Assembly: GCF_013694095.1 (NCBI RefSeq)
Contig: NZ_JACEFB010000008.1
Coordinates: 62,001-126,000, forward strand
Direction of reading: 5' to 3'
DNA length: 64,000 bases
Source of the DNA: Thermogemmata fonticola
GTDB taxonomy: Bacteria > Planctomycetota > Planctomycetia > Gemmatales > Gemmataceae
Part shown: positions 49,799 through 64,000 of the stretch, in pieces
Position numbering within the stretch: the stretch's first letter is position 1
How the letters are laid out: each line of letters begins with the position of its first letter
The notes under the pieces: generated by a model
What the model was told of the DNA's origin: nothing
The model's input: the letters and a program-made list of their open reading frames with translations, nothing else
Databases searched by the model: none
Made by a program: the position numbers and the translations under genes

Positions 49799-50045
49799 GA
49801 GATTCTCCTCCTGCGTTTTCGTCCCGTGAATCCACCAGCGACAGGCAGCACTCCCAGCACTGCCCTTCGCGGCGCCCATGAGCCATTCCCCTTGTAACCA
49901 AGCTCATTCTATCAGTCAGTGACAGGAAAGCCGAGGAAAGGGCCATTCGACACGATCAGGACGTTGGCTCCCCCTAGAGAATGACGAAGACCCGCAAGAA
50001 CTGGGAAGAGCAAGCTATCACCGCCATCACAGGGGCCGCTGGTCA

Positions 50046-50435
50046 TCAGTCCTGGGCAAGGGGAATGCGCGGAGGAGCGGCGGCTCCCTCCCCAAAATTC
50101 ACGGGCGGAAAGGACGATCCCTCCGTTTCGAAGGGTACAAAAGCGGAGGATGAACTCGTCGCTCGACCCTCGTCCTCGATCAAGGCATCCAAAGGGACGA
50201 GTGTGACCACGTCCTGTTCCTGTCCCTGGCCGACGGCAGCGGCCTGCGACGGGAGTTGCACCGCGGCACTTCCGGAGTTCCCGGACGCCTGCGGAGACGG
50301 CACGGCGGTCGGCATTTTCTGTCCAGCCTCCGGCCTCAAGAGGACCCAAAGATACCCGCCGCCAACTGCCGCCAGAATAGCTCCCACCCCGGCTGCTTTC
50401 CACATCGTAGATGACCACCCTCTCCATGCCTCCAT
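50046..50435 (-). CDS. Small single-pass membrane protein of unknown function
   Basis: A 129-residue protein with one transmembrane helix at about residues 12-32 (KAAGVGAILAAVGGGYLWVLL). The rest is low-complexity Ser/Ala/Pro/Gln-rich and acidic, probably outside the membrane. The start at 50435 follows GGGGGAGG closely, which is the main support for the call. A longer frame on the same strand in another phase overlaps it but has no such signal. The function is unknown. Confidence 0.6.
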   Translation of the reverse strand: MEAWRGWSSTMWKAAGVGAILAAVGGGYLWVLLRPEAGQKMPTAVPSPQASGNSGSAAVQLPSQAAAVGQGQEQDVVTLVPLDALIEDEGRATSSSSAFVPFETEGSSFPPVNFGEGAAAPPRIPLAQD

Positions 50436-50747
50436 AGTCCGCCTCCCCCAGCTTCGCCTGATTCTCCTCAACCCTGCCGGATAAAGACAGCGGAAACTGC
50501 TGCTTCAGGGGACAGTTCATACCACCCCGCGCCTCTCCTTGCCAAGAGGAATCTCGATTTCCAGCGGTATCAATCGGACAAAACCTCAACCCGTCTCAGT
50601 CTGAACCGGATATCCACGGAAAACCAACCTGATTTCTGAAAGAGGAATGAGAAGTCGAAACACGGTGGTGTCCAGGTGTGAAGCCTGGGGTTAAACCTGT
50701 GAGTGATCGCAGGAGCGAGTCTCCGCGACACGGCGATAAAAGCAGCG

Positions 50748-50766
50748 GGTCAACACGGTGTTGACC
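50748..50766. promoter_or_regulatory. 19-base palindrome upstream of a small secreted protein gene
   Basis: GGTCAACAC at 50748-50756 and GTGTTGACC at 50758-50766 form a perfect inverted repeat around one G. It lies 41 bases before the start at 50807. It looks like an operator for a dimeric regulator. The rest of the 371-base gap (50436-50806) holds nothing else I recognise. Confidence 0.55.
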
Positions 50767-50806
50767 GCCCCCCTGCTATCCCACAATCAGAGGAGGGTAT
50801 CGAGTC

Positions 50807-51172
50807 ATGCGTAAGCTGTTTCTCGCAACGGCAAGCGTGTTTCTGATGGCGGGTCTGGCGTATGCGGTGGACGTGATCGTCATCCGCTACAACGCCGAAA
50901 CCAAGGAAGTGACTGTCAAGGAAGGGGACAAGGAGGCGACCTACAAGATCGCCGAGAATGTCAAGGTGATCCTCAAGGACAAGGAGGGCAACACCAAGGA
51001 GGGCACCTTTGCGGATTGGGAGCGGCGGCTGAAGTTCGCCGGTGGCAAATTCGGTGGCAAAGGGGGCGGTAAAGGCGGCGGCCGCTTCGGAGGCGGCAAA
51101 GCCGACATCACCGTCAAGGACGGTGTGATCACGGAAGTCACCATCACTGCGTTTGGCCGCAAGAAGAACTGA
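50807..51172 (+). CDS. Small exported Gly/Lys-rich protein
   Basis: A 121-residue protein with a clear signal peptide (MRKLFLATASVFLMAGLAYA). The mature part is rich in Lys, Glu and Val (KEVTVKEGDKEATYKIAENV) and has a Gly-Lys-rich loop at about 77-99 (GGKFGGKGGGKGGGRFGGG) before ADITVKDGVITEVTITAFG. The beta-strand-like termini flanking a flexible Gly-rich insert suggest a small sandwich with a disordered loop. No function is known. GAGGAGGG lies just upstream, and the palindrome at 50748 may regulate it. Confidence 0.78.
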   Translation: MRKLFLATASVFLMAGLAYAVDVIVIRYNAETKEVTVKEGDKEATYKIAENVKVILKDKEGNTKEGTFADWERRLKFAGGKFGGKGGGKGGGRFGGGKADITVKDGVITEVTITAFGRKKN

Positions 51173-51384
51173 AACTCCCGCGCTGGATCGGGGCTGTGCG
51201 GTACTTGGCCGCGGAAGCCTCAACACTCTCGGCTTGGGGTCCGGCTTCTGGCGCCGGGCCTTGTTTTTGGCGCTTTTCTGCGACGGTTGGGAAAAATGTT
51301 CTCCCCAGAAGTAGTTGGTGTGAATTCTGAGTCGTCTGTCCAGCCGGCGTTAGCATCCTTTCCCGCCCGCCTGCCCGCCGAACC

Positions 51385-53265
51385 TCACGGCCCCTTCCAC
51401 TGGACGAAGGCTTCGAGGGCGAAGTATTCGGGAAGTCCCAGGGCGTCGTAGATGCGGGCGGTGTTGCGATTGCGTTCTTCGGCCCGCTGCCAGAACTCCC
51501 GGCGGTCGGACCCACCGGGGAACATCGCCCGATCCTTCTGGGATTGGTGGCGGAAGATGGCCTGCTTCTTCCGTTCCAAGATATCGGGGCTAAGAGGCAC
51601 GGCCATTTCGATTTCGTGGGGTTCCCATTCTTCCCACGCCCCTTTATAGAGCCAGACCTGGCAGGGGAGCTGCCCCTGCTGCTCCTGAAGCCGACGGAGA
51701 GCGGCGAAGATGGCCTCGGCACAGAGGCGGTGGGTTCCGTGCGGGTCGGAAAGCTCCCCGGCCATATAAATCTGCTTCGGCTGGAGGCGCTGCACCAGAG
51801 CGACCAGATCATCGATGTCCTGGGGATGGATGGGGTCCTTGGTGATCCGCCCCGTTCGGTAGAACCGCAGGTTGAGAAAGCTGAGGTTTTCCGGCGGAAT
51901 GCCGCAGGCCAAGGCAGCAGCGCGGGCCTCCGTGGCGCGAATGAGAGCCTTGATGGTCAGCACGTCGTCATTGTCGGGCTGTCCCGGCTTCTTTGCATCG
52001 AGAAAGTGGTACACCCGCTGCTTGACATCCGCGGCACGGGCCTGTTCTGCCGCACTGCCGAAATGCGTGAGGAATTCGTGGACAAAATCGACGAAACGGC
52101 GCGCATCGTGATCATACACGGCGATATTGCCGCTGGTCATGTAAGCGACGTGCACCTGATGTCCTTGCTCCACCAGCCGAATGAGCGTCCCGCCCATGGA
52201 GATGACATCATCATCGGGGTGGGGTGAAAACACGAGAATGGTCTGCGGGGCGGACCGGCCAGCCGGATAGGGCGTAATGGTGGACATGCGATCATGGAAA
52301 ACGGCCTCGCCGATCTTCTCCGCCGGTCCTTGTTCGCGCAGCAATTCGTAGAGATGGTGTTCGCGGAAGTCCTCATCATCCAATTGCAGCAGTCCCTTTT
52401 TGACGGTCAGCGCCAGGTGGACCACTGCTTTGCGGACCAATTCCGGCGTCCAGTGGCAGGGGCCGACCTCCCAGGGGCGTTTGATGGCGGTCAACTCGGC
52501 TGCCGCCGCCGGGTCCAGCACCACGGTGGCATCCGGATGCTCCTGGAGAAAGCTCGCGGAGATCGCCTCGGTAGGCGGTTGTTCCACCGCTTTGTACACG
52601 ATCGAGGCTTTGTGTTCCCCAAAGGCCATGAGGAAAATACGCCGGGCTTCGAGAATCGTCGCCACGCCCATAGTGATGGCGTGGTGCGGCACGTTTTCCT
52701 CACCGAAGAAACCCGGAGCGGCATCGCGGCGGGTAATGCTATCCAGGGTGACCAAGCGAGTTCGGCTATTCCGCGGGCTGCCCGGTTCATTGAAACCGAT
52801 GTGCCCCGTGCGGCCAATCCCCAGGATTTGAATATCAATCCCGCCGGCGGCCTTGATCTTCCGTTCGTATTCTGCGCAGAAAGCGTCGATCTCCTCCTTG
52901 GCCAGCGTTCCATCCGGAATGTGGATGTTTTCCCACGGAATGTTGACGTGATGAAAAAATGTCTCATGCATCCAGCGGAAGTAGGAGTGCGGGTCCTCCT
53001 TGGGCATCGGATAGTATTCGTCCAGATTGAAGGTGATGACTCGCGAGAAGTCCAGCCCTTCCTCCTGATGCAGGCGGATCAATTCGCGGTAAAGTCCCAC
53101 GGGTGTGCTGCCTGTAGCCAGTCCTAAGACTGTGGATTTCCCGGCGGCATTGCGGGCGCGGATCAGCTTGTCAATTTCCCGCGCCACATACCGGGCGGCT
53201 GCCGCTGCCGTTGGAAACAACACTGTCGGGACCCGCGTGTGGGCTAGCGAATGCAAACCAGTCAT
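51385..53265 (-). CDS. nagB: Glucosamine-6-phosphate deaminase-like / PIG-L deacetylase fusion
   Basis: A 626-residue protein with two domains. Residues 1-290 are NagB-like, with GLATGSTPVGLYREL, ITFNLDEYYP (Asp82/Glu83), ILGIGRTGHIGFNEPGS and His155/Glu160. NagB enzymes usually have Asp-Gly-His at the TGH site; here Thr153 replaces the Asp. Residues 340-570 are a PIG-L/LmbE deacetylase, with the metal motif HPDDD at 349-353 and DPHGTHRLC further on. The combination fits removal of the acetyl and amino groups of GlcNAc-6-phosphate in amino-sugar catabolism; the Asp change leaves the deaminase step open. Such long NagB proteins occur in Bacteroidota and planctomycetes. Cytosolic. No N-acetylglucosamine uptake genes are nearby. 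Confidence 0.9.
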   Translation of the reverse strand: MTGLHSLAHTRVPTVLFPTAAAAARYVAREIDKLIRARNAAGKSTVLGLATGSTPVGLYRELIRLHQEEGLDFSRVITFNLDEYYPMPKEDPHSYFRWMHETFFHHVNIPWENIHIPDGTLAKEEIDAFCAEYERKIKAAGGIDIQILGIGRTGHIGFNEPGSPRNSRTRLVTLDSITRRDAAPGFFGEENVPHHAITMGVATILEARRIFLMAFGEHKASIVYKAVEQPPTEAISASFLQEHPDATVVLDPAAAAELTAIKRPWEVGPCHWTPELVRKAVVHLALTVKKGLLQLDDEDFREHHLYELLREQGPAEKIGEAVFHDRMSTITPYPAGRSAPQTILVFSPHPDDDVISMGGTLIRLVEQGHQVHVAYMTSGNIAVYDHDARRFVDFVHEFLTHFGSAAEQARAADVKQRVYHFLDAKKPGQPDNDDVLTIKALIRATEARAAALACGIPPENLSFLNLRFYRTGRITKDPIHPQDIDDLVALVQRLQPKQIYMAGELSDPHGTHRLCAEAIFAALRRLQEQQGQLPCQVWLYKGAWEEWEPHEIEMAVPLSPDILERKKQAIFRHQSQKDRAMFPGGSDRREFWQRAEERNRNTARIYDALGLPEYFALEAFVQWKGP

Positions 53266-53693
53266 ACCATGCCATTCCTGAGTCGAGGACAGACGAGAAT
53301 CCGCGGCTCTGCCTGCCTTCGGGTCGATGGAATAGGTGTTCTAGCATTTGGAACGGTGGAAGGGGAGAGAGTAAGCTCCGTGGGAACTGCCGAAGGGGAG
53401 AGGGTGTAACTAGATTCTCTGGGGGTGGGGGCTGAACCCGCGAGGTGTTTCCCCAGACTAGCAGAGCTGCCCGGCAGGGAACTCCCAGAAAATCTGGTTG
53501 CACTCGGGGAGAGAGCGAGGCCGGCTCGCTCTTGGCGCCTCCCACGGCAGGTGATATGGCTGTTGGTTCTGCGGACCGTCTCTTCACGGAGTGGGAAGGC
53601 GGCAGCGTAACGGAAAGCCAAACGGGAAGGACCAACTGGCACACAGGACAGACTGAAAAACAAAACGGAAAGCCAAACTGGGAGCGTTTCGCC
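53266..53693. other. Divergent intergenic region with short repeats
   Basis: These 428 bases contain a near-repeat of 20 bases (GGAACGGTGGAAGGGGAGAG at 53350 and GGAACTGCCGAAGGGGAGAG at 53383) and a 15-base repeat (AACGGAAAGCCAAAC at 53609 and 53664). No gene is convincing; the longer open frames here have no ribosome binding site. Confidence 0.5.
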
Positions 53694-54584
53694 ATGCCCC
53701 GACGAGAATGGAAAGTACCCGAACGAGGTCGAAGAGCAATAGCGGGCGTGCGGCGGGGGATCGCCGTTTGGGCGGTGGGAGTGGCGCTCTGTTCCGCGGC
53801 GGCAGGAACCGCTCCAGAAGGGGTGCCCCGCTTCCGCTGGACAACGGGTCTGGTCCTGACTTATCAACTCCGGCAGCGCACCACCGTCCAGGAGACGTTT
53901 GTGGACGAACGGCAGCAGAAACAGACCCGCCAGACAACGAGTGACTTGCAACTGACACGCGAGTGGACAGTGCAAGCGGTCGATGCGATGGGCATAGCCA
54001 CCTTGCAGATGCGCATCCTGTCCCTGCGTTCGGAACTCCGTCGAGGCGAGGAAGAGCCGTTGATCCGAGACTCGGCCCAGCCGGAACATGCCAAGGAGAT
54101 GGCCGCCTTTCTGAACAAAGGGCTGGTGACTGTGCGGCTGGATGGTCGAGGCCGCCTGCTCGCAGTGACCGAGGTCCGCAGCGGCTCAGCTCAGCGCCTG
54201 GAGGTCGAGTTGCCTTTCCGCCTCATTCTGCCGGAGGAGGGATGGGAAGCCGGCCGGAGCTGGCAGCGGCAAGCCCGCGTGAAAATCGATCCGCCCCTGG
54301 GAGTGGGGGACAGCTACACTCTGGAGCAGAAATACACCCTGCTCCGCCGACAGGGGAACCTCTGGACGGTGGGTCTGTCCACCCGCTGGACCGAGGAACC
54401 GCCGCTCGCGGAACAAGCTGCGGTGTTTCCCTTCATGTGGGAAGGGGAGGTAGACTTTGACGTTGCCGCCGGGCAGTACCAGGGCGCCCGCTTGCGCATT
54501 GAACGAGAGCTTCGGGACCACCTCGGCCCCGGCAGCCGTTATCTCTATCGCAGCAGTTACGAGGAGCAGCGGTTGCCGCGCTGA
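53694..54584 (+). CDS. Exported beta-rich protein of unknown function (DUF6263-like)
   Basis: A 296-residue protein with an Arg-rich start (MPRREWKVPERGRR) and a signal peptide (AVWAVGVALCSAAAG). The mature part has the alternating hydrophobic pattern of long beta strands, as in the planctomycete DUF6263-type proteins: LVLTYQLRQRTTVQETF, LTREWTVQAVDAMGIA, VRLDGRGRLLAV and LPFRLILPEEGWEAGRSW. No enzymatic motif is visible. A lipid- or ligand-binding beta-barrel is possible but unproven. GGGAG lies 10 bases before the ATG at 53694. It is convergent with the FAH-family gene, 50 bases away. Confidence 0.75.
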   Translation: MPRREWKVPERGRRAIAGVRRGIAVWAVGVALCSAAAGTAPEGVPRFRWTTGLVLTYQLRQRTTVQETFVDERQQKQTRQTTSDLQLTREWTVQAVDAMGIATLQMRILSLRSELRRGEEEPLIRDSAQPEHAKEMAAFLNKGLVTVRLDGRGRLLAVTEVRSGSAQRLEVELPFRLILPEEGWEAGRSWQRQARVKIDPPLGVGDSYTLEQKYTLLRRQGNLWTVGLSTRWTEEPPLAEQAAVFPFMWEGEVDFDVAAGQYQGARLRIERELRDHLGPGSRYLYRSSYEEQRLPR

Positions 54585-54634
54585 GAGCTGGGGCGCGAAC
54601 CCTGCCAACGGGGCAGGCACGCCGGGGCTGCCGG

Positions 54635-55510
54635 TCAACTCTCCGCCACGCAGGGATTCCGCAGGATGCCGATCTTTTCGATCTCCACTTCCACAATGTC
54701 GCCCGGCTGGAGCAAAATCGGCGGCTGGCGTGCGATGCCCACTCCGGGAGGCGTTCCGGTGAAGATCAAATCGCCCGGCTCCAGGGTCATCACCTGGGAC
54801 AAGTAAGACAGCAGATGCGGCACGCCGAAGATAAACTCGCGAGTGTTGGAATCCTGCAAAGTGACGCCATTGCGGCGGAGGCGGATTTGCAGATGGTGCG
54901 GATCCGGAATCTCATCGCTGGTCACCAGCACCGGACCAACAGGAGCGAAGGTGTCGAAGGTCTTGCCGATGATCCACTGCTTCTCTTCGCCTCGAAATTG
55001 CCAATCTCGCGCACTGACATCATGGCCGCAGGTGTAGCCGCCGACATAGTCGTACGCCCGCGCATCGTTGGGAATGTGTTTGCCCGTCTTGCCAATGACA
55101 ATCACCAGTTCCGCCTCGTAGTCCACTTTTCGGGCCACTTTCGGCAGGCGAATCGGGTCGCCGTGCGCGATCAGAGTGTTGCGGAACTTTCCGAAGAGGA
55201 CCGGTTCCTCCGGGATCGCCTTGCCTCCCTCGCGGGCATGATCCCGATAGTTCAGGCCAATGCAGAGGATTTTCCCCGGATCAGGAATCGGCGGCAGCAG
55301 CCGGACGCTCTGCGGCGGGTAAGCGACGGCCGACGGCGCGGCGGCCACTTCCGCAGCCAGTCGGCGAATGGCCGTCGAAGCCGCTAGCAGAGCTTTCACA
55401 TTATCCGGCAAGCCCGGCTCGCTCGCATGCAGGTCCACATAGTATCCATCGCTGCGCTCGACCGCGGCGCGCGGACCCTGCGGGGTCTGGATCGTCGCCA
55501 GTCTCATCAC
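54635..55510 (-). CDS. Fumarylacetoacetate hydrolase (FAH) family protein
   Basis: A 291-residue cytosolic FAH-fold protein. The catalytic/metal segment includes LCIGLNYRDHARE, PVLFGKF, KVDYEAELVIVIGK (Asp and Glu metal ligands), GYTCGHDVSARDWQ and IFTGTPPGVGI. This places it near 2-hydroxyhepta-2,4-diene-1,7-dioate isomerase and acylpyruvate hydrolase types, which cleave or decarboxylate carbon-carbon bonds in aromatic degradation. The specific reaction is not clear. GGGAGAAAG lies upstream of the ATG. It lies 228 bases downstream of the S41-like gene on the same strand. Confidence 0.9.
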   Translation of the reverse strand: MMRLATIQTPQGPRAAVERSDGYYVDLHASEPGLPDNVKALLAASTAIRRLAAEVAAAPSAVAYPPQSVRLLPPIPDPGKILCIGLNYRDHAREGGKAIPEEPVLFGKFRNTLIAHGDPIRLPKVARKVDYEAELVIVIGKTGKHIPNDARAYDYVGGYTCGHDVSARDWQFRGEEKQWIIGKTFDTFAPVGPVLVTSDEIPDPHHLQIRLRRNGVTLQDSNTREFIFGVPHLLSYLSQVMTLEPGDLIFTGTPPGVGIARQPPILLQPGDIVEVEIEKIGILRNPCVAES

Positions 55511-55738
55511 TTTCTCCCATCAGACCATCGGAAAACTACGGCTTGAGCATCACGGGGTGTATTCAATGGATGGCTCGCAAAACGGCGAGGCGGAACGAGG
55601 GAAAATCTCCCGCAGGCCGAGGGGTGATATATCCGGAGGTAGCGGCACATCCGCAGGGTTTCGCATCCCATCCTGATGAGGAGGAATCCGCCCGGTCAGC
55701 GGGGGATGCCAGTCCGGACAGCCGCTCGGATGGCCGCT

Positions 55739-57508
55739 TCACGGGCCGCGAGAAGAGGGGGCGGGAGAAGAGAGTTTCTCCAGGTGCTTGCGGAGCAATT
55801 GCAGGGTGGTGTAGCGAACGGAATCGCTGCGGGGATCATCGAGCGGCGAAGCCTCCCGGCTGGAGGGAAGGCGGAGGGTGAAGCTCTCAAGCTGGCGGAA
55901 AAGTTCCAGGCGGGCGGCGGCCTCCAGCGGGATTTCCCAACCGGGGTCCGGACGCAGTCCCCAGGCGTCAGCGGGCTGACTGTCGGGATAGCGGTGGCGG
56001 GGTTGGCCGTTGGGCCGGAACATGAGGCCGGTGCTGACACGCAGTTGCAATTCTGCTACGTCCAAGCCGATGAGCGTTTGCAAAGCGGCCCGGCCCGCGC
56101 TGCGCTGTCCTGCGAGCCAGCAGCGGTTGTGATCTCGCAAGGCGGCGGCGATCATCTCTCCGCCCCCCAAAGTTTCCGGCCCTATCAACACCACCAGAGG
56201 CAGTTGCGGGCAAAGGGGCGGGTGAGGAAGTGTGCGCAATTCCCGCAGCTCGGCAGATGCCGGCGGGCCGACGCGGACTTGGGGATATTCCATCCGAGCC
56301 AGCAATGTGTTCGCCGGTAGGAACAAGCTGGCGACCTCGATGGCGCTTTGCACATATCCTCCCGGACACCAGCGGAGGTCCAGGATCAGACCCCGGCAAC
56401 GCTGCTGCTGCAATTCCTCGAGCGCGGCCCGCAGTTGCAAGGGAGCGTGCAATTCCAGCGGCCCCAAACGAACGTAACCGATCCGTTCCGGGCGATCGAG
56501 CCACCAATCCCAACTCCCGTCCCCATCACGCCGGACCCCATAGACACATTCCGCCTGATACTGCTCCTGAGCCGCGATCCGTAGTTCGATCCGCTGGCGG
56601 CCCCGCTGAATCGTCAGATGACACGCGGGTGACAATGGCCGGCCTGTGACTGGATCGAAGGTCATTGGAGCATAAGCCCATTCCTGGAAGAGGCGGGAGA
56701 CATTCTCCGGCGTCAATGCTATGCCGCGATAATGCGTAATCACATCTCCCTTCTGAATACCTGCGAAGTGCGCCGGACTGCCAGGGATCACACGCCGAAC
56801 CCGCCAGGGATAATGGATCGGAGCGGAAAGTTGTTCCGGAGCGGGCACGTCACCGATGTAACCGACAGGGGGATAGCGCCGCAGGGCCAAGGCCCGCTCC
56901 CACTGGTACGCTGTCCAGCGCGAACCTGTCCAACCCTCCAGTTCCAGTCCCACGCCGAAATCCAGCTCTACGGAAAAGGCTTGCATCACTCCGGAACGCC
57001 GCCACGTGACGCTACAGTGCCCTTCCGTCGCTTGGGTGAATCCCTGCAACCCCACCAGCAAGGATTGCGTCCCCCGCAGCCGGGGATGATCCCGAAGCTG
57101 GCGGCGAATCTCCATAAGCAGGTGCACGCGATCGCGGGGAGTATTGGGCAGGCGGTCCAGTTGCTGAACGATTCTCTCCGGCAACGGCGCATCGATCGCC
57201 TGGTACCACTGGCGAATGGCCCCGGCGATCAGCACTTTCTCTTCGACACGCTGGTACAAATTGGCCCGGACCATCATGGCGGCCCGATCCAGGGCTTCGG
57301 CCAGCATGCGGACCTGCTGGTCATCCACCGGCTTCGCCGCGGAGGCAGTTTGGCCAGCTCCGGCCTTTGGGGGATCTCCAGCCCCTGCGGGCGGCAAGGC
57401 CGACGCTAGGGGGACGACACCCATCGTCCCTGCCAGCAGCACCCCAATAATCCCCAACCCTAGGAGCCGGTGCGTCTCTCCCCGCCCGAACATGCCGCTT
57501 GGCGACAC
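55739..57508 (-). CDS. Exported S41-peptidase-like protein with PDZ domain, catalytic dyad absent
   Basis: A 589-residue exported protein. A signal peptide (about 12-38) leads to a helical region, a PDZ domain at about 238-310 (VIPGSPAHFAGIQKGDVITHY) and an S41/CtpA-fold domain at 343-500. The core strands GYVRLGPL and GLILDLRWCPGG are present. The nucleophile Ser of SASASE is Gly448 in TLGGGEM, and the catalytic Lys of SFGKGSVQ is Arg473 in SAGRAALQ, 25 residues later as in active enzymes. It is therefore probably a non-enzymatic scaffold or regulator. The start at 57508 is GTG with AGAGGG upstream; ATG at 57493 is also possible. Confidence 0.85.
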   Translation of the reverse strand: MSPSGMFGRGETHRLLGLGIIGVLLAGTMGVVPLASALPPAGAGDPPKAGAGQTASAAKPVDDQQVRMLAEALDRAAMMVRANLYQRVEEKVLIAGAIRQWYQAIDAPLPERIVQQLDRLPNTPRDRVHLLMEIRRQLRDHPRLRGTQSLLVGLQGFTQATEGHCSVTWRRSGVMQAFSVELDFGVGLELEGWTGSRWTAYQWERALALRRYPPVGYIGDVPAPEQLSAPIHYPWRVRRVIPGSPAHFAGIQKGDVITHYRGIALTPENVSRLFQEWAYAPMTFDPVTGRPLSPACHLTIQRGRQRIELRIAAQEQYQAECVYGVRRDGDGSWDWWLDRPERIGYVRLGPLELHAPLQLRAALEELQQQRCRGLILDLRWCPGGYVQSAIEVASLFLPANTLLARMEYPQVRVGPPASAELRELRTLPHPPLCPQLPLVVLIGPETLGGGEMIAAALRDHNRCWLAGQRSAGRAALQTLIGLDVAELQLRVSTGLMFRPNGQPRHRYPDSQPADAWGLRPDPGWEIPLEAAARLELFRQLESFTLRLPSSREASPLDDPRSDSVRYTTLQLLRKHLEKLSSPAPSSRGP

Positions 57509-57927
57509 CTTCTACCCTCTCGCTGGAAGCGCCCCTCGAACATCTCCACCTCTACTTTGGCGCATGGGTATGACTTCCGCAAGGCATCCACGAGAATAAT
57601 TCGACTCTGGCAAATAGCCCCTAGGAAAATCACCCCAGGCGACCGAGTGGGTAACTTGGTACCACCAACACTTTGGCGGCGGGCAAAAAAGGAGCTTCCG
57701 CAAATACGATCCCCCCCGTTCTTCCCAAAGACCGTAAAATTGCCCCGGATCATCTTGACAGAAAGGGCGATAGGTACAAAGATGCATTTTGATGCGGGCA
57801 TAATGCCGCTCCAACGAGGGGGAAAAGGAACCGGTAAGGAAAACGGGGGTGAAACCCTGGCAGGTGTGACATCGACGGGTATCCGCCGGGGATGCCTAAG
57901 GCTCTAGTGCGACTGAGGTGCATCGTT
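57509..57927. other. Divergent intergenic region upstream of the STAS gene
   Basis: A TTGACA at 57755-57760 is the best -35-like match, but no good -10 lies at 16-18 bases (TACAAA is 14 bases away). No gene or RNA is seen in the 419 bases. Confidence 0.35.
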
Positions 57928-58293
57928 ATGGCTACGGAATCTACCCGCCGGCGCCGGCTGGAAGTCGAAGACATCGGAGATATCGCCGTTGTCAACTTCG
58001 TGGATAAAAAGATATTGGATGAGCAAAATATTCAGATGATCGGCGACGACTTGTTCCGCCTGGTGGATGAGTTGGGCCGGCGCAAATTGCTGCTCAATTT
58101 CGGAAATGTGGAGTTCATGTCCAGTGCAGCTTTGGGGAAACTGATCACGCTGCACCGGAAGTTGCAGGCCGTGCAAGGAAAGCTGGTCCTGTGCAACATT
58201 GCCAAAGACATCCTGGAGGTCTTCAAGATTACCAAACTGGATCGTATCCTGACCATTGTGCCGGATGAACAGGCAGGACTACAGTCATTCTGA
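57928..58293 (+). CDS. Anti-sigma factor antagonist, STAS domain (RsbV/SpoIIAA-like)
   Basis: A 121-residue STAS-domain protein. The RRRRLEVEDIGDIAVVNF opening and NFGNVEFMSSAALGKLITLH are typical; one of the Ser residues in FMSSAALG is the expected phosphorylation site. When unphosphorylated it binds an RsbW-type kinase so that a sigma factor or other partner is released. The gene 83 bases downstream encodes just such a kinase, so the pair forms a partner-switching module. GAGGTG lies 8 bases before the ATG. No matching sigma-B-type gene is adjacent; the nearest sigma factor is ECF at 63 kb. Confidence 0.9.
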   Translation: MATESTRRRRLEVEDIGDIAVVNFVDKKILDEQNIQMIGDDLFRLVDELGRRKLLLNFGNVEFMSSAALGKLITLHRKLQAVQGKLVLCNIAKDILEVFKITKLDRILTIVPDEQAGLQSF

Positions 58294-58376
58294 AAAAAAT
58301 ATGCTAATCTAAGGGTGATGGATCCGATACCGAAGATCATGAGTCAAGGGCACGATGTCCTTCACAGGCGCATTCT

Positions 58377-58817
58377 ATGAGCGGCCAATTGCTTATGAGC
58401 GCTCAGCATGAATTGATCATACCGAGTGATCTCTCTGAAGCTCGACGGATCCAATCGCTGGTCGAGCAAGTCCTGCAAAAGTGGGGCTATTCGGAGCACG
58501 ACATTTTTGCCATCAAGTTGGCGTTAGAGGAAGCGCTGGTCAATGCGATCAAACACGGCAATCAGATGGACCCAGACAAGAAAGTCCATGTCCGCTTCGC
58601 CGTCAATGACCGCCAATTCGAGATTCACATCGCTGACGAAGGCCCCGGTTTCAATCCCGACGATGTTCCCGACCCAACGGACCCAGAAAACCTCGAGCGT
58701 CCCTGCGGCCGAGGCCTGCTTCTGATGCGCGGCTTCATGACTCACGTCGAGTATGCTCCTCCAGGCAACCGAGTCCGCATGATCAAGGTACGGGCCGACA
58801 GCCAACCTTCCTCCTGA
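58377..58817 (+). CDS. RsbW-like serine kinase/anti-sigma factor (HATPase domain)
   Basis: A 146-residue protein with the GHKL ATPase fold. The N box is LALEEALVNAIKHGNQ, G1 is ADEGPGFNP, and the G2-like stretch is GRGLLLMRGFM. RsbW-type kinases phosphorylate the STAS partner on Ser and bind sigma factors or other targets. All ATP-binding elements are present. It follows the STAS gene on the same strand after 83 bases, so they are probably co-transcribed. No clear ribosome binding site is visible; an ATG six codons in is an alternative. Confidence 0.9.
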   Translation: MSGQLLMSAQHELIIPSDLSEARRIQSLVEQVLQKWGYSEHDIFAIKLALEEALVNAIKHGNQMDPDKKVHVRFAVNDRQFEIHIADEGPGFNPDDVPDPTDPENLERPCGRGLLLMRGFMTHVEYAPPGNRVRMIKVRADSQPSS

Positions 58818-58957
58818 CAGCATCCCCCTCATCACGACCTATCCCCGCCAGGGGAAGAGAATAACCTAACCGGTAGAAGAGAAGAACACAACGAGTCCAC
58901 GTAAAGACCCCGCTTTCGGAAGGCACCCTGAACCGCAGCGAAGCATCGGGGCAAGGC

Positions 58958-59857
58958 ATGACTTTTCCCCCCACTTCATCCCCTTCGAGCTTTCATCCTC
59001 CGGAGCGACTGGAGCAGCTCCGCCAGGCGTTACGTCGCGGGAAATACCAAGCGGCGCTCTTCGACTTCGATGGCACCCTTTCCCGCTTGCGGGCCGGTTG
59101 GCCTCAGGTCATGGTGCAAGTGCTCGAAGAGTACTGGCAAGCGGCGGGATTACCGAAAGACGAACCGGAGCAGACACGCCAGCAATTGCTCCACCTGGTG
59201 CTCTCGACCAACGGCATGCCCCCGTTACGCCAGATGCACGTTTTCGTCCAAATGGTTCAGGAGCGCGGCGGAAGCGAATTGGACCCTTCGGAATGCGCGG
59301 CCACCTACCAGTACCGCCTGAGACAACTGGTCCAGCGCCGCTATGATTCCCTCCGGCGAGGCGAGACAGCGCCCCCGCAGTGGATCGTACCGGGGGCGCG
59401 TGAAATGCTTGCTGCTCTGCAACGGCGCGGCTTGAGGCTGTTCTTAGCCAGCGGCACGGAATACGATCAGGTTCGTGCGGAGGCGGACCTGCTCGGCCTG
59501 CGGCCATTTTTTCCCCACGGCATCTTTGCTCCCCAAGGAGAGGATTTGTCCTTTGCCAAAGGGCAGATTATTGACCACCTTCTCCGCAACCATGATTTGC
59601 GCGGGGAAGAGTTGATCGGCTTCGGCGATGGGGTTGTGGAAACACGGGAAGTCAAGCGTGTGGGTGGTACAGCGATCGGGCTAGCCACCTCCGAGGTCTC
59701 GGAAATCGCAACTCCCACACTACCGTCGAGCACCCCAGCCACCATGACTGCCTTGGCCGCTTCGGATGATCCCACCGTGTCCGACAAATGCCAGCGCTTG
59801 CTGGCGGCGGGTGCGGACCTCATCCTGTCCGATTATCTGGCCTTATCCCTGGACTGA
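58958..59857 (+). CDS. HAD-superfamily hydrolase
   Basis: A 299-residue HAD-fold phosphatase. Motif I is FDFDGTLS with the nucleophile Asp; motif II is LASGT; motif III Lys lies in SFAKGQII; and motif IV is FGDGVVETREV. A helical cap domain of about 100 residues sits after motif I. The substrate, typically a phosphorylated metabolite, is not predictable. The 30 residues before motif I are Pro/Ser-rich. It follows the RsbW-like gene on the same strand with a gap of 140 bases. A linker near 250-275 is Thr/Ser/Ala-rich. Confidence 0.9.
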   Translation: MTFPPTSSPSSFHPPERLEQLRQALRRGKYQAALFDFDGTLSRLRAGWPQVMVQVLEEYWQAAGLPKDEPEQTRQQLLHLVLSTNGMPPLRQMHVFVQMVQERGGSELDPSECAATYQYRLRQLVQRRYDSLRRGETAPPQWIVPGAREMLAALQRRGLRLFLASGTEYDQVRAEADLLGLRPFFPHGIFAPQGEDLSFAKGQIIDHLLRNHDLRGEELIGFGDGVVETREVKRVGGTAIGLATSEVSEIATPTLPSSTPATMTALAASDDPTVSDKCQRLLAAGADLILSDYLALSLD

Positions 59858-60000
59858 CAGAGCGGCGGGAGCGTCAGCCGACGGTCGAGCACGAACAGTG
59901 TTTGCCACAAGCGGGCCTATTCGGAATAGGGGGAAGCGAGCCGGTTGCAATCCTTTTCTGCTCCGAAGTGGACAGGTGTGATGCAGCCTCGCCGGGGACA

Positions 60001-61593
60001 CTAGTAGCGCGGGTCGGCGAGGATCTCTTCGCTGACGATCGGTTCGTTGAGGGTAACAATGCCGGCTTGGTCATCCCATTCCATATTCGGCATCATTTCC
60101 TGCATGACTTTGTGGATGACGTCGCGGATGTCCAAGAAGGCGGCGACGCAATCGGGGTCGAATTGGCGGCCGGCCTGGCGTTCCAGTTCACAGAAGGCCC
60201 AGGCGGACGAGCGGCACTGGTGATAGGTGTGATAGGGTCGGGGCGAGGTAATGGCATCGAAGGCATCCGCCACAGCGACGATCCGGGCCAGATAGGGAAT
60301 ATCTGTGCCGGCGAGGCGGTCCGGATAGCCAGTACCATCCCAGCGTTCGTGATGGTTGCGAACGATCGGGATGATGGGCGCCATTTCTGGGATGTTGCTG
60401 AGGATTTCCGCCCCTTTGGTGGTGTGCTCCTTCATCAGAGCGTATTCTTCGGGGGTGAGTTTGCCGGGCTTGCGCAGGATGGCGTCGTCGATCCCAATTT
60501 TGCCGATGTCATGCAAGGGGCTGCCGAGGCGGATGATGTCGGTCTGCTCGCGATCCAGCCCCAGGCGTTCGGCCAGGAGCAAGGCGTAGCGGGTCACGCG
60601 CTGGGTATGCCCGCCGGTGTAATCATCGCGGAGTTCGACGGCCTGAGCCAAGGTGGTGATGGTTTTGAGGAAAAGTTCGCGCTGCTGGTGCAATAGCAGA
60701 GCGCTTTCGAGGGTCGCCGAGACGTGGGCTGCCAGGGCGTCGGCCAGGTGAAGGTCATCTTCCGTAAACGGGTGCTGTTCCAGCCCGCGGTCGAGATGCA
60801 AGACACCCAGGCGGCGGCGCGGCGTGCGGAGCAGCACGCACATGACACTGCCCATCGCCCCTTCCGCGATGCTTTGACCCAAGCGCGTATCGCTGTCTAA
60901 AGAGGTAAAGGTGCTGTACAGCAAAGAGACACCCGCGGCGTAACACCGCTGCGCCAGTTTCTTGGAGTAGAAGTGATGATGACTAGCGGTGTTGTTGCCG
61001 TGAGCGACCGCCGCGGTTCGCCAGCGTGGCTCGGCCGTATCCCCTTCCGCGAGAATGATCGCACCCCGTTGGGCGGCCAGGACGCTGACCGCATCGTTGA
61101 GGATCGCCTGATACAATTCATCCGGATCATGGGCATGCACGAAGTGATGGCCGGCCCGTAATAGAGCGATCAATTGTTCGCCGGGACGGGGCATCTGATT
61201 GCGGTCAAAGGCCAGGCGGCGGATACCTTCTTCATAAGTGGAGGGCGTCGTGGCCAGTATGTGCTGATTGGAGGAGGGAATTTCCGGAACGTCATCGCTC
61301 TGTTCCACCAGTACAGCGACTTTGCCGAACTGGAGAATATCCCGGCAGCGCAAGGGATGCTCCAGGGCGCCGATACGCGCACCGTTGACGTAGGTCCCAT
61401 TCGTGCTTTCCAGGTCCCGGATATACCACCCTTCTGGGCCATGACGAATCTCCGCATGGCGGCGGCTGACGGAACTGTCCTCCAAAACCACTTCCAGAGA
61501 GGCCAAACGCCCCACGCGCAGGAGGGAGTCTGACTCCCACACCTTGCCTTTGAATGCGCCACTGATGCCGCGCAGGCGGATCATCCGCTTCAC
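60001..61593 (-). CDS. FHA-GAF-HD-GYP phosphodiesterase
   Basis: A 530-residue signalling protein. An FHA domain (about 10-95) has the phosphothreonine-binding Arg, Ser and Asn in VGRL, SVSRRHAEI and ESTNGTYVNG. A GAF domain follows at about 140-300. The HD-GYP domain (about 315-510) carries His361-Asp362 (HDIGKIG), HHERWDGTGYPD and VADAFDA, the metal and cyclic-di-GMP site, so it is probably active. It likely responds to Ser/Thr kinases, for example through FHA binding, by lowering cyclic-di-GMP. The start is GTG at 61593 with GAGGAGCGG upstream; ATG at 61584 is an alternative. No kinase gene is adjacent; the nearest is at 14.5 kb. Confidence 0.93.
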   Translation of the reverse strand: MKRMIRLRGISGAFKGKVWESDSLLRVGRLASLEVVLEDSSVSRRHAEIRHGPEGWYIRDLESTNGTYVNGARIGALEHPLRCRDILQFGKVAVLVEQSDDVPEIPSSNQHILATTPSTYEEGIRRLAFDRNQMPRPGEQLIALLRAGHHFVHAHDPDELYQAILNDAVSVLAAQRGAIILAEGDTAEPRWRTAAVAHGNNTASHHHFYSKKLAQRCYAAGVSLLYSTFTSLDSDTRLGQSIAEGAMGSVMCVLLRTPRRRLGVLHLDRGLEQHPFTEDDLHLADALAAHVSATLESALLLHQQRELFLKTITTLAQAVELRDDYTGGHTQRVTRYALLLAERLGLDREQTDIIRLGSPLHDIGKIGIDDAILRKPGKLTPEEYALMKEHTTKGAEILSNIPEMAPIIPIVRNHHERWDGTGYPDRLAGTDIPYLARIVAVADAFDAITSPRPYHTYHQCRSSAWAFCELERQAGRQFDPDCVAAFLDIRDVIHKVMQEMMPNMEWDDQAGIVTLNEPIVSEEILADPRY

Positions 61594-61997
61594 GGGACGC
61601 CGCTCCTCAACCTCCCTCCCAGCTCGCGCCGCGGATAGGCTCCATCTGCCGGCTCATCCACCGCCGCTGGGAGTTTACATTCCTAAGCATAACATAGTCT
61701 TGTGCTCTTTCTGACCACAATTGTAAAGTATGAAAAGGGAGAGGGGGATACTCGTGCAACTATTTTGCGAATTTCTCCAGCCAATTCTTCCCTCTCCACA
61801 ATTTCTTCGTCCCAGCGAAGCCTAGGCGCGCCGTTGGAATGCGTCCGAGGAGGGCGGCACCCTTCATCAGAGAATCGCCCGGCATGCTGGGTTTCCGTTC
61901 AAGGGTGTCTCAGTCCCTGGCCGAAGGTCTGTGTTCTGCTTCCGCAAGGACAATGAAGAGCGAGATGCCTAGGGTCGAAGTGACCGACACCAGGATG
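61594..61997. other. Intergenic region upstream of the HD-GYP gene
   Basis: An AT-rich stretch at 61675-61800 probably holds the promoter of the HD-GYP gene (minus strand). The best pair is TTGTGG and TATGTT 18 bases apart (61720 down to 61691), which is weak. No gene is supported in the 404 bases. Confidence 0.4.
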
Positions 61998-62912
61998 TCA
62001 GTCAGCGGAATGAAAGGAGACGGTTTTGGAGGGGGCGAGGCCGGTCACACTTTTTCCGATCAGCCAGCAAGGGAAGTTTGAGGATTGGACATGGCCGTCG
62101 GCGTAAAGAATGTTGCAACCGTAGGGATGGCCGATGTAGGGAGAGGACCCACTTCTCGGATTCGAGACCCCGGCAGGACATGGGCGGGGAGCATACCAAT
62201 CTTCAAGGGGCTGGCCGTAAAGGGGAGAGAGCCGGCGGACAGCGTCCCTCTGGTCAGGGCGTCCGGCCATGGTCCAGTATGATACGTAAATCGAGGAAAT
62301 GTCCGCGGAGTGAATAACGACCGGCTGAAGCGGGAAGGAAGTATTTTCCGGACTGGCGGTCAGAGAACAAAAAACCACAGGCAGGCAGGAGGAGACGGCC
62401 TCCGCAGAGGGCCAGGAGGCGTAAGGAAGCGAGGGTTCCGCCAGCGGGCTAAAGGCCGCCAGAGAGGGAACGCTCGACCCATGGGCATTCTGCTGGACGT
62501 AGGAGAGGCGAAGCGTGTTCTGGCAGGCGAGCCAGTCATGGCGGGCGCGCAACTTGCCCACAGCAGACAGGAACAGACCGCTAGCCAGGATCAGAATGCA
62601 GCCGGCCACGAGGATATCGGGCCGGAAGCGCCCGCCTGTGATGCGCCAATCGGGCAAGGTCCGCGGTGCTCGTGGCAAAGTGCGGGAGGGGTGCGGCCAG
62701 AGGTCCTGAAGGCGTGCCAAGGTCCGCTCTGCCAGTCCCTGGCGCGGAAGGACAAGGCGCTGGCGCTCTCGTTCCAGAGGCTGGAGCTTGCGCCGCAGAC
62801 GTTCCAGGCGTGCAGCCAAGGCGCCATCCGCCTGCAAACGAGCTTCCAACTGCCGAGCCTCCGCCTCGGAGAGTTGGTGCAACAGGTAATCCAGCAGAAC
62901 TTCGTCACGCAT
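61998..62912 (-). CDS. Putative transmembrane anti-sigma factor with DUF1559-like outer domain
   Basis: A 304-residue protein. The N-terminus MRDEVLLDYLLHQLSEAEAR is the helical start typical of planctomycete anti-sigma factors, followed by a Leu/Arg-rich helix. One transmembrane helix lies at 98-118 (PDILVAGCILILASGLFLSA). The outer part begins LACQNTLRLSYVQQNA, close to the C-x-NNLK-x-LGLALHNY element of DUF1559 proteins, and ends with GHPYGCNILYADGHVQ at 261-276, matching the H-x9-DG motif of the two DUF1559 proteins in this window. It lies 105 bases downstream of the ECF sigma gene on the same strand, as expected for its regulator. Confidence 0.78.
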   Translation of the reverse strand: MRDEVLLDYLLHQLSEAEARQLEARLQADGALAARLERLRRKLQPLERERQRLVLPRQGLAERTLARLQDLWPHPSRTLPRAPRTLPDWRITGGRFRPDILVAGCILILASGLFLSAVGKLRARHDWLACQNTLRLSYVQQNAHGSSVPSLAAFSPLAEPSLPYASWPSAEAVSSCLPVVFCSLTASPENTSFPLQPVVIHSADISSIYVSYWTMAGRPDQRDAVRRLSPLYGQPLEDWYAPRPCPAGVSNPRSGSSPYIGHPYGCNILYADGHVQSSNFPCWLIGKSVTGLAPSKTVSFHSAD

Positions 62913-63017
62913 AAATGTATCGCAGTTTCCACGGGCGATGCTTGCAGTTACCCTACAATGGCGTGGCGGCGAGGCCTTGTTCTTTGTGCCCTCCGAGCCG
63001 CACAAGGGGAAAGCCTT

Positions 63018-63725
63018 TCACAAGGGGGAAGAGGCGGCAGCAGCGGAGCGGGGGCGCGGCCAGGGCACCCTCAGCGGGTCCGCCGGCTGCTGGGCCGAGT
63101 GCCGGGGCGCATCAAAAGCCGAGCAGGCCTCGAGGAGTTTCTTCAAGGCCGCATGCAAGCGGGATTTCACCGTGCCGATGGGAATGCCGAGCACCTCGGC
63201 AGCTTCGTGGTACTTCAAGCCTTGGAAATACACCAGCAACACGACACTCCGCAGGAGGGGGGGCAGGTTTGCCACCGCTTGGCGGACTAAAGTCCGCTGC
63301 TCCGCGCGCTCCAAAAGGTCCAACGGTCCGTCCGTCTCGTCGGCGGCGACCAGGTCCCAGCCGCAGACCGCCGCTTCGTCGTCTCCCATTCGTTCCTCCC
63401 ACAGCCCGGCGCGATCTCGCCGCCGCTGCAACCGCCGCAAGGCATCGATCGCCTGGTGGGTGGCGATGGCGTAAAGCCAGGGGCGCGCCGCCCGGCCCGG
63501 CTCATACTGGTCGATCTTCAGAAACACTTGCAAGAAGGTGTTCTGAAACACATCCTCCGCCAGCTCATCGTCGTTGAGATAGCGGCAGAGATACCCGAAC
63601 AATTCCCGCTCATAACGGCGCACCAGCAAGTCCAGCGCGGCCGGCTCGCCGCGTTGCAGGCGCAACAACAATTCTTCATCCGACGGTGCCGATTGCACAA
63701 TCGCCCCCACTCCCACTCTCCACAC
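63018..63725 (-). CDS. RNA polymerase ECF sigma factor
   Basis: A 235-residue sigma-70-family factor of the ECF type. Region 2 includes LFGYLCRYLNDDELAEDVFQNTFLQVFLK and PWLYAIATHQAIDALRR (about 43-97), and region 4 is LPPLLRSVVLLVYFQGLKYHEAAEVLGI followed by GTVKSRLHAALKKLLE. It directs RNA polymerase to a small regulon and is expected to be held by the downstream putative anti-sigma factor. The start is uncertain: GTG at 63725, or GTG at 63698 with GGGAGTGGGGG upstream. The C-terminal tail of about 35 residues is Pro/Arg-rich. Confidence 0.94.
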   Translation of the reverse strand: MWRVGVGAIVQSAPSDEELLLRLQRGEPAALDLLVRRYERELFGYLCRYLNDDELAEDVFQNTFLQVFLKIDQYEPGRAARPWLYAIATHQAIDALRRLQRRRDRAGLWEERMGDDEAAVCGWDLVAADETDGPLDLLERAEQRTLVRQAVANLPPLLRSVVLLVYFQGLKYHEAAEVLGIPIGTVKSRLHAALKKLLEACSAFDAPRHSAQQPADPLRVPWPRPRSAAAASSPL

Positions 63726-64000
63726 ATGGCTACGCTCAGGGAGCCGCCAGGGTTCGCTCAGTCCAATCCGTTTTCCTCAACTCTGGCGGACTGTTCTTCC
63801 TTCCAGCCCGATCTTTGTTAGGCCATCTTTCCCGTCTCTTCCATGTCAGGAATCAAACCCATAGCTTCTCTCGCTCAAGTCCGCCTTTATCTGCGCTCAA
63901 GCTCGTCTTCTATCCAGCCGCGGTTCCCTGAGCCAATCGGAAAACTCTTGTCGATCGTTCCTTCAGAACTCACCCTCAGACTCATTCTAAAGAGGAAAAG
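63726..64000. other. Region upstream of the ECF sigma gene
   Basis: No gene is supported in the last 275 bases. They should carry the promoter of the sigma/anti-sigma pair, but no clear -35/-10 is seen. Confidence 0.35.

Follow-up and report, generated by a model that had tools for sequence, protein, structure and literature searches.

The window analysed here, a stretch of 64,000 nucleotides from Thermogemmata fonticola, encodes a member of the S41A (carboxyl-terminal processing protease, CTP) family in which both the catalytic serine and the catalytic lysine are replaced. We consider it probable that this protein is a maintained pseudoprotease of the Gemmatales, one that works in the cell envelope by binding peptides or the C-termini of proteins and does not cleave them. 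An earlier note, made from the DNA alone, had described an S41 homologue devoid of both catalytic residues and had read it as a pseudoprotease. The open reading frame, strand and limits that it gave are exact (Table 1), and its reading is supported by the loss of the dyad, the S41A fold, the presence of a PDZ domain and an oxyanion loop, the clade-wide loss of the serine and the purifying selection that acts on these genes.

Table 1. Position of the pseudoprotease gene and of its domains and active-site residues in the window.
Feature	Position	Strand	Basis
S41A pseudoprotease gene	55739..57508	-	ORF, 589 aa + stop, GTG start; orthologues in relatives
Hydrophobic N-terminal stretch, probable export signal, about residues 15-40	57389..57466	-	hydropathy; low pLDDT 1-54
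N-terminal helical region, residues 63-160	57029..57322	-	AlphaFold2 helices; VIA-align ranges
PDZ domain, residues 237-275 (Pfam PDZ_6)	56684..56800	-	profile match
Peptidase_S41 domain, residues 342-505	55994..56485	-	Pfam profile and PDB matches
Cys381 (TGT), at the position of CtpA Asn244, directly before the Pro-Gly-Gly oxyanion loop	56366..56368	-	alignment, codon
Gly383-Gly384, retained oxyanion-loop glycines	56357..56362	-	alignments
Gly448 (GGG), replacing the catalytic serine	56165..56167	-	CtpA alignment, codon, orthologues
Ala471, replacing a conserved aromatic (CtpA Phe325), two residues before the Lys position	56096..56098	-	alignments
Arg473 (CGG), replacing the catalytic lysine	56090..56092	-	CtpA alignment, codon, orthologues
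Gln477, retained third residue of the proposed CTP triad (Lys+4, CtpA Q331)	56078..56080	-	alignments
Gly494 (Ala in most intact S41)	56027..56029	-	comparison of clade and intact rows

In a phmmer comparison with the PDB, Pseudomonas CtpA pairs with residues 344-503, and no gap falls between the catalytic positions. By the printed alignment, with the CtpA numbering given in PMC11021448, Gly448 stands at the place of Ser302 and Arg473 at that of Lys327, 25 residues apart as in CtpA, while Gln477 corresponds to Gln331, Cys381 to Asn244, Gly383 and Gly384 to Gly246 and Gly247, and Ala471 to Phe325. Substitution of either catalytic residue in the Pseudomonas enzyme (S302A or K327A) is reported to abolish its activity in vivo (PMC11021448), and Gln331, which would complete the proposed triad, is not essential; the functions of the CtpA residues are taken from PMC11021448 and PMC8764530. 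The lysines of the T. fonticola protein are found only at positions 48, 59, 91, 253, 574 and 578. Because residues 254-573 hold none, no Ser/Lys dyad is possible within the S41 domain, and the alternative raised in the earlier note, an intact pair elsewhere in the domain, is thereby ruled out.

The Pfam Peptidase_S41 profile is matched at 87.7 bits (cut-off 24), which places the protein in the S41 family, and the NCBIfam model of the prc subfamily (TIGR00225) at 76.8 bits, below its cut-off of 218.6. PDZ_6 is matched at 28.2 bits (cut-off 27) between the N-terminal region and the protease core. In an alignment of 24 clade members (A1), Peptidase_S41 is recognised in all 24 and PDZ_6 in 23; a hydrophobic N-terminal stretch occurs in all 23 members having an N-terminus, the remaining one (L016) being a fragment. 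This stretch, with a hydropathy maximum of 2.29 at residues 18-32 in the window protein, suggests that the protein is probably exported.

Using the same 24 members, AlphaFold2 yields a model with a mean pLDDT of 85.8 and a pTM of 0.83, residues 1-54 having low pLDDT. Foldseek and VIA-align searches return CtpA as the best match of this predicted structure (7rpq, Z 24.2, rmsd 3.7, 249 aligned residues, 26% identity), followed in the PDB by 7rqh (VIA-align Z 24.2); CtpB is also matched closely by VIA-align (4c2c, Z 23.9, rmsd 5.0, 340 aligned, 18% identity). Prc and D1 protease are among the other matches, with VIA-align ranges that start at model residues 51-66, and CPAF and tricorn are more distant. 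The high rmsd over the whole chain probably reflects the placement of the PDZ domain and the cap in the model. The sequence ranking by phmmer is similar in content: Pseudomonas CtpA (E 6.4e-18), D1 protease, H. pylori CtpA, an Acinetobacter S41 protein, CtpB and Prc. The conservation of fold, PDZ domain and residue spacing claimed in the earlier note is thus borne out by the profile matches, the CtpA alignment and the structural comparison.

To place the substitutions among relatives, the window protein was searched against 59 related genomes, 58 of which gave S41 matches (none in G035); the best match was left out of the reading for G003, G026 and G051. Among the 30 aligned rows from this search (L006-L035), position 448 is Gly in 24 and Ser in 6. 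The reading also covered 80 of the weaker matches listed, most of them S41 paralogues in these genomes, and 79 carry Ser and Lys. The exception (L127, G018:C526), one of the paralogues of the L001 kind, retains the Lys and Asn381 but reads TRGGAE at the nucleophile; it is an independent Ser-to-Gly loss outside the clade. Furthermore, a scan of named-species genomes with two patterns, one of which requires Cys or Ser at 381, gave 54 loci, 34 of them (L036-L069) clade members by their motifs. The latter bear mostly planctomycete titles, the exceptions being L064 ('uncultured bacterium') and L048 (Bacteroidales). The motif region of L048 is identical to that of L010, from a genome of the window's family (G020), and we take its title to be that of a mislabelled bin.

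After removal of 18 rows with an identical domain, 150 of the 168 aligned rows remained, namely 41 clade members, 98 rows with Ser and Lys and 11 others. Membership was counted as Gly448 together with Cys or Ser at 381, which leaves out three Gly448 rows without Cys/Ser381 (L087, L088 and L127) and one row with Ala448 and Cys381 (L078). By this count all 41 members have Gly448, whereas position 473 is Lys in 25 and Arg in 16; the two substitutions are therefore neither chance nor sequencing error, and a single-genome oddity is likewise ruled out. Gln477 is kept in 38 members, Gly383 in 39, and Gly384, Glu451 and Asp459 in all 41. Judged by the rows read, 18 of the 37 genomes searched in the window's family carry a clade member, as do 6 of the 7 in the sister family of the order, but none of the 15 other genomes of the class covered by the search of 59 relatives. 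This patchy distribution counts against the reading that we favour.

In a quick maximum-likelihood tree of 86 of the 150 rows (41 clade rows, 3 other Gly rows and 42 with Ser and Lys, of which 36 were picked randomly), built with the trait columns removed, the 41 members form one clade (SH-aLRT 98), inside which a few changes between Lys and Arg at 473 are needed. Since the clade has Gly throughout but a mixture of Lys and Arg, the serine was most simply lost once at its base and the lysine later, as far as these sequences tell. The loss of both residues noticed in the window thus extends to the whole clade for the serine, but not for the lysine, whose loss is secondary. Two further cysteines of the window protein, Cys371 (56396-56398, minus strand) and Cys463 (56120-56122, minus strand), occur together with Arg473 in 14 of the 41 members, while 23 have Lys473 and neither cysteine; they are possibly a linked pair of the Arg subclade.

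Comparison of the 41 clade members with the 98 Ser+Lys rows indicates that the changes go beyond the dyad. The three sharpest differences are Ser448Gly, Ala494Gly and Asn381Cys/Ser, followed by changes at 452-453 and Gly at 449-450. Position 494 is Gly in every member versus Ala in 85 of the 98 intact rows, and position 381, whose Cys (37) or Ser (4) is part of the definition of the clade, is Asn in 93 of the 98. The aromatic residue at 471 is found in 93 of the intact rows and in only 5 members. Phe325 of CtpA is reported to be required for substrate degradation in vivo, F325A being almost as harmful as S302A (PMC11021448). The loss in 36 of the 41 members of an aromatic that lies on the substrate path of CtpA therefore indicates that the groove is not simply preserved. 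Together with the other pocket changes, it argues from the alignments that the active-site region is remodelled and not a fossil, with a peptide-contacting main-chain glycine loop retained. The suggestion in the earlier note that the substrate-binding parts are kept thus holds for the PDZ domain and the oxyanion loop, but not for the aromatic at 471 or for Ala494. Overall, the window protein resembles Pseudomonas CtpA and Bacillus CtpB in its PDZ domain and S41 fold, its probable export signal, its oxyanion glycines and the Gln after the Lys position, and differs from them by the absence of the Ser nucleophile, the Lys base and the 471 aromatic and by the changes of Asn381 and Ala494.

The mechanism that we propose starts from a carboxyl-terminal processing protease of the S41A type in the Gemmatales, which would have been the ancestor of the clade. 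The protein would be exported to the cell envelope with a CtpA/CtpB-like predicted fold. It would retain the elements with which CTPs hold the C-terminus of a substrate and the peptide, namely the PDZ domain and the main-chain groove; CTP PDZ domains are indeed reported to bind substrate tails (PMC6686036, PMC12749690). As the protein has no nucleophile and, in the window's genus, no general base, peptide-bond cleavage by the S41 mechanism would not be expected. Its targets in the envelope may instead be unfolded peptides or the C-termini of proteins, which it would bind as a holder, a decoy or a regulator of envelope proteolysis. The genome has four other S41 proteins, of which three retain Ser and Lys, so candidates for active CTPs remain in the cell; the fourth (L004), which gave no blastp match to the window protein, was left out.

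These paralogues also bear on a different role, unlikely in our view, in which the protein would join an active CTP of its cell as a non-catalytic subunit and modulate it, by analogy with ClpR. ClpP and the S41 proteases belong to the same broad ClpP/crotonase fold class. ClpR, a catalytically dead protease copy in mixed Clp rings, offers a precedent (PMC6508832); its place in a mixed complex is established, whereas a partnership of the window protein would be hypothetical. CTPs are described as oligomeric, with loops of one subunit acting on the active site of its neighbour (PMC11021448, PMC12749690), and the clade conserves its C-terminal segment strongly, with Asp557 and Asp562 invariant in 24 of 24 members. 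However, Asp557 and other C-terminal positions are unlike those of the intact paralogues, so the interface may not match, and none of the neighbour clusters that recur in the 34 loci compared was recognised as an S41 paralogue.

The genes that do recur around these 34 loci give no function, and a functional operon was rejected on this basis. A fumarylacetoacetate-hydrolase-family gene (window:54635-55510, minus strand) adjoins the S41 gene and is found near it in 8 of the 34 clade loci; a histidine-kinase-like gene, judged by its sequence start only, is near it in 8, the two sets partly overlapping. Divergent from the S41 gene, the window encodes a STAS protein followed by a HATPase_c_2 protein (window:57892-58817, plus strand), an anti-sigma-factor-like pair that had no match in two or more of the 34 loci. 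Further away, a 626-aa protein fuses glucosamine-6-phosphate isomerase and PIG-L type deacetylase domains (window:51385-53265, minus strand). Rfam gave no match in window 50000-64000.

It is distinctly unlikely that the former active site has been widened to bind a small molecule or a lipid instead of a peptide, in the manner of RBP3/IRBP. Concerted changes toward small residues (Ser448Gly, Ala449Gly, Ser450Gly/Ala and Ala494Gly) would fit such a pocket, and the model does match IRBP modules, which have an S41-like fold with the dyad lost (7jti, Z 18.1, rmsd 5.8, 272 aligned; 4lur, also Z 18.1). RBP3 is described as a vertebrate carrier of retinoids and fatty acids that lost its protease residues (PMC11750400). 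CtpA and CtpB, however, match better, with Z of about 24, and the window protein, unlike RBP3, keeps a PDZ domain, which is found in 23 of the 24 members of alignment A1 and which a small-molecule carrier would not need.

The Cys or Ser at position 381 is the least expected feature of the clade. It could compensate for altered packing or point to a nucleophile that has moved, and it leaves a small opening for a different chemistry. We hold it to be very improbable that the nucleophile is now Cys381 (or Ser381), next to the oxyanion loop, in place of Ser448, with Lys473 or another group as the base. This reading is favoured by the coupling of the two positions, since all 41 Gly448 members that define the clade have Cys or Ser where intact S41 proteins mostly have Asn. 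To select independently of 381, we ran a DNA pattern that covers only the Gly motif over 102 genomes of the order; 35 genomes matched, and 30 of the 41 matched places were read, giving 8 unrelated chance matches and 22 S41 genes, many of them from genomes already sampled, with Cys381 in 21 and Ser381 in 1. In CtpA, Pro245, the neighbour of the residue equivalent to 381, and Lys327 are reported to flank the peptide path beyond the nucleophile, the peptide density stopping between them (PMC11021448). On the other hand, the coupling traces to one ancestor and therefore counts as a single event, and Cys381 persists in 15 of the 16 Arg473 members and is thus not dependent on the base. Furthermore, Ser381 also occurs in three S41 rows with an intact dyad, and outside the clade three of the four Gly448/Ala448 rows (L087, L088 and L127) have neither Cys nor Ser at 381. 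If true, this reading would make the protein a Cys-type enzyme within a Ser-protease family, re-invented and not dead.

The idea that Cys381 marks broken S41 dyads in general is not supported. Some alphaproteobacterial rows of the named-species scan do combine the cysteine with a retained Ser and no Lys, but one of the two patterns of that scan requires Cys or Ser at 381, and these rows may come from an S41 subfamily in which this Lys plays no part. S41 proteins of alphaproteobacteria and other proteobacteria (L076, L080 and L082-L085) have a DCPGG loop and the Ser, with no Lys at the usual place. A search of 392 planctomycete genomes with the Cys motif returned four matches, which are the window gene, an S41-like protein with the Ser retained and the Lys absent (L170), and two frames without the S41 nucleophile motif (L171 and L173). 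In the S41 protein of Caulobacter sp. 602-2 (L078), which has Cys381, the catalytic Ser is replaced by Ala and the Lys by Asn; it is likely, from these residues, another pseudoprotease.

The genes of the clade are under purifying selection and are maintained. Indeed, NG86 dN/dS ratios are 0.101, 0.116, 0.107, 0.204, 0.214, 0.203, 0.143 and 0.211 for eight orthologue pairs (0.10-0.21 in 8/8), the last two being rough because their dS values of 2.38 and 1.86 approach saturation of synonymous change. That the gene is decaying or non-functional, as its patchy presence within the family might suggest, is scarcely conceivable given these ratios and the 23 columns that are invariant among the 24 members of alignment A1.

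Taken as a peptide-binding pseudoprotease, the window protein would resemble iRhoms and CspC/CspA, which are binding or regulatory proteins derived from proteases, although their folds and systems are unrelated to it. Pseudoproteases are a known kind of protein, as are members of the S41 fold that are not peptidases, RBP3 among them. The open literature searched yielded no report of such an S41 protein from Gemmata or the Gemmatales; most subscription papers fall outside that search, so one may be published. S41 proteins are readily annotated as proteases from their profile alone, and the clade would then be misannotated. Carboxyl-terminal processing proteases control envelope turnover, and a naturally dead CTP would let one ask what the PDZ domain and the groove do without cleavage. 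Finally, the order of loss, Ser and then Lys, together with the coupled change at 381, would make the evolution of a pseudoprotease readable in this family.
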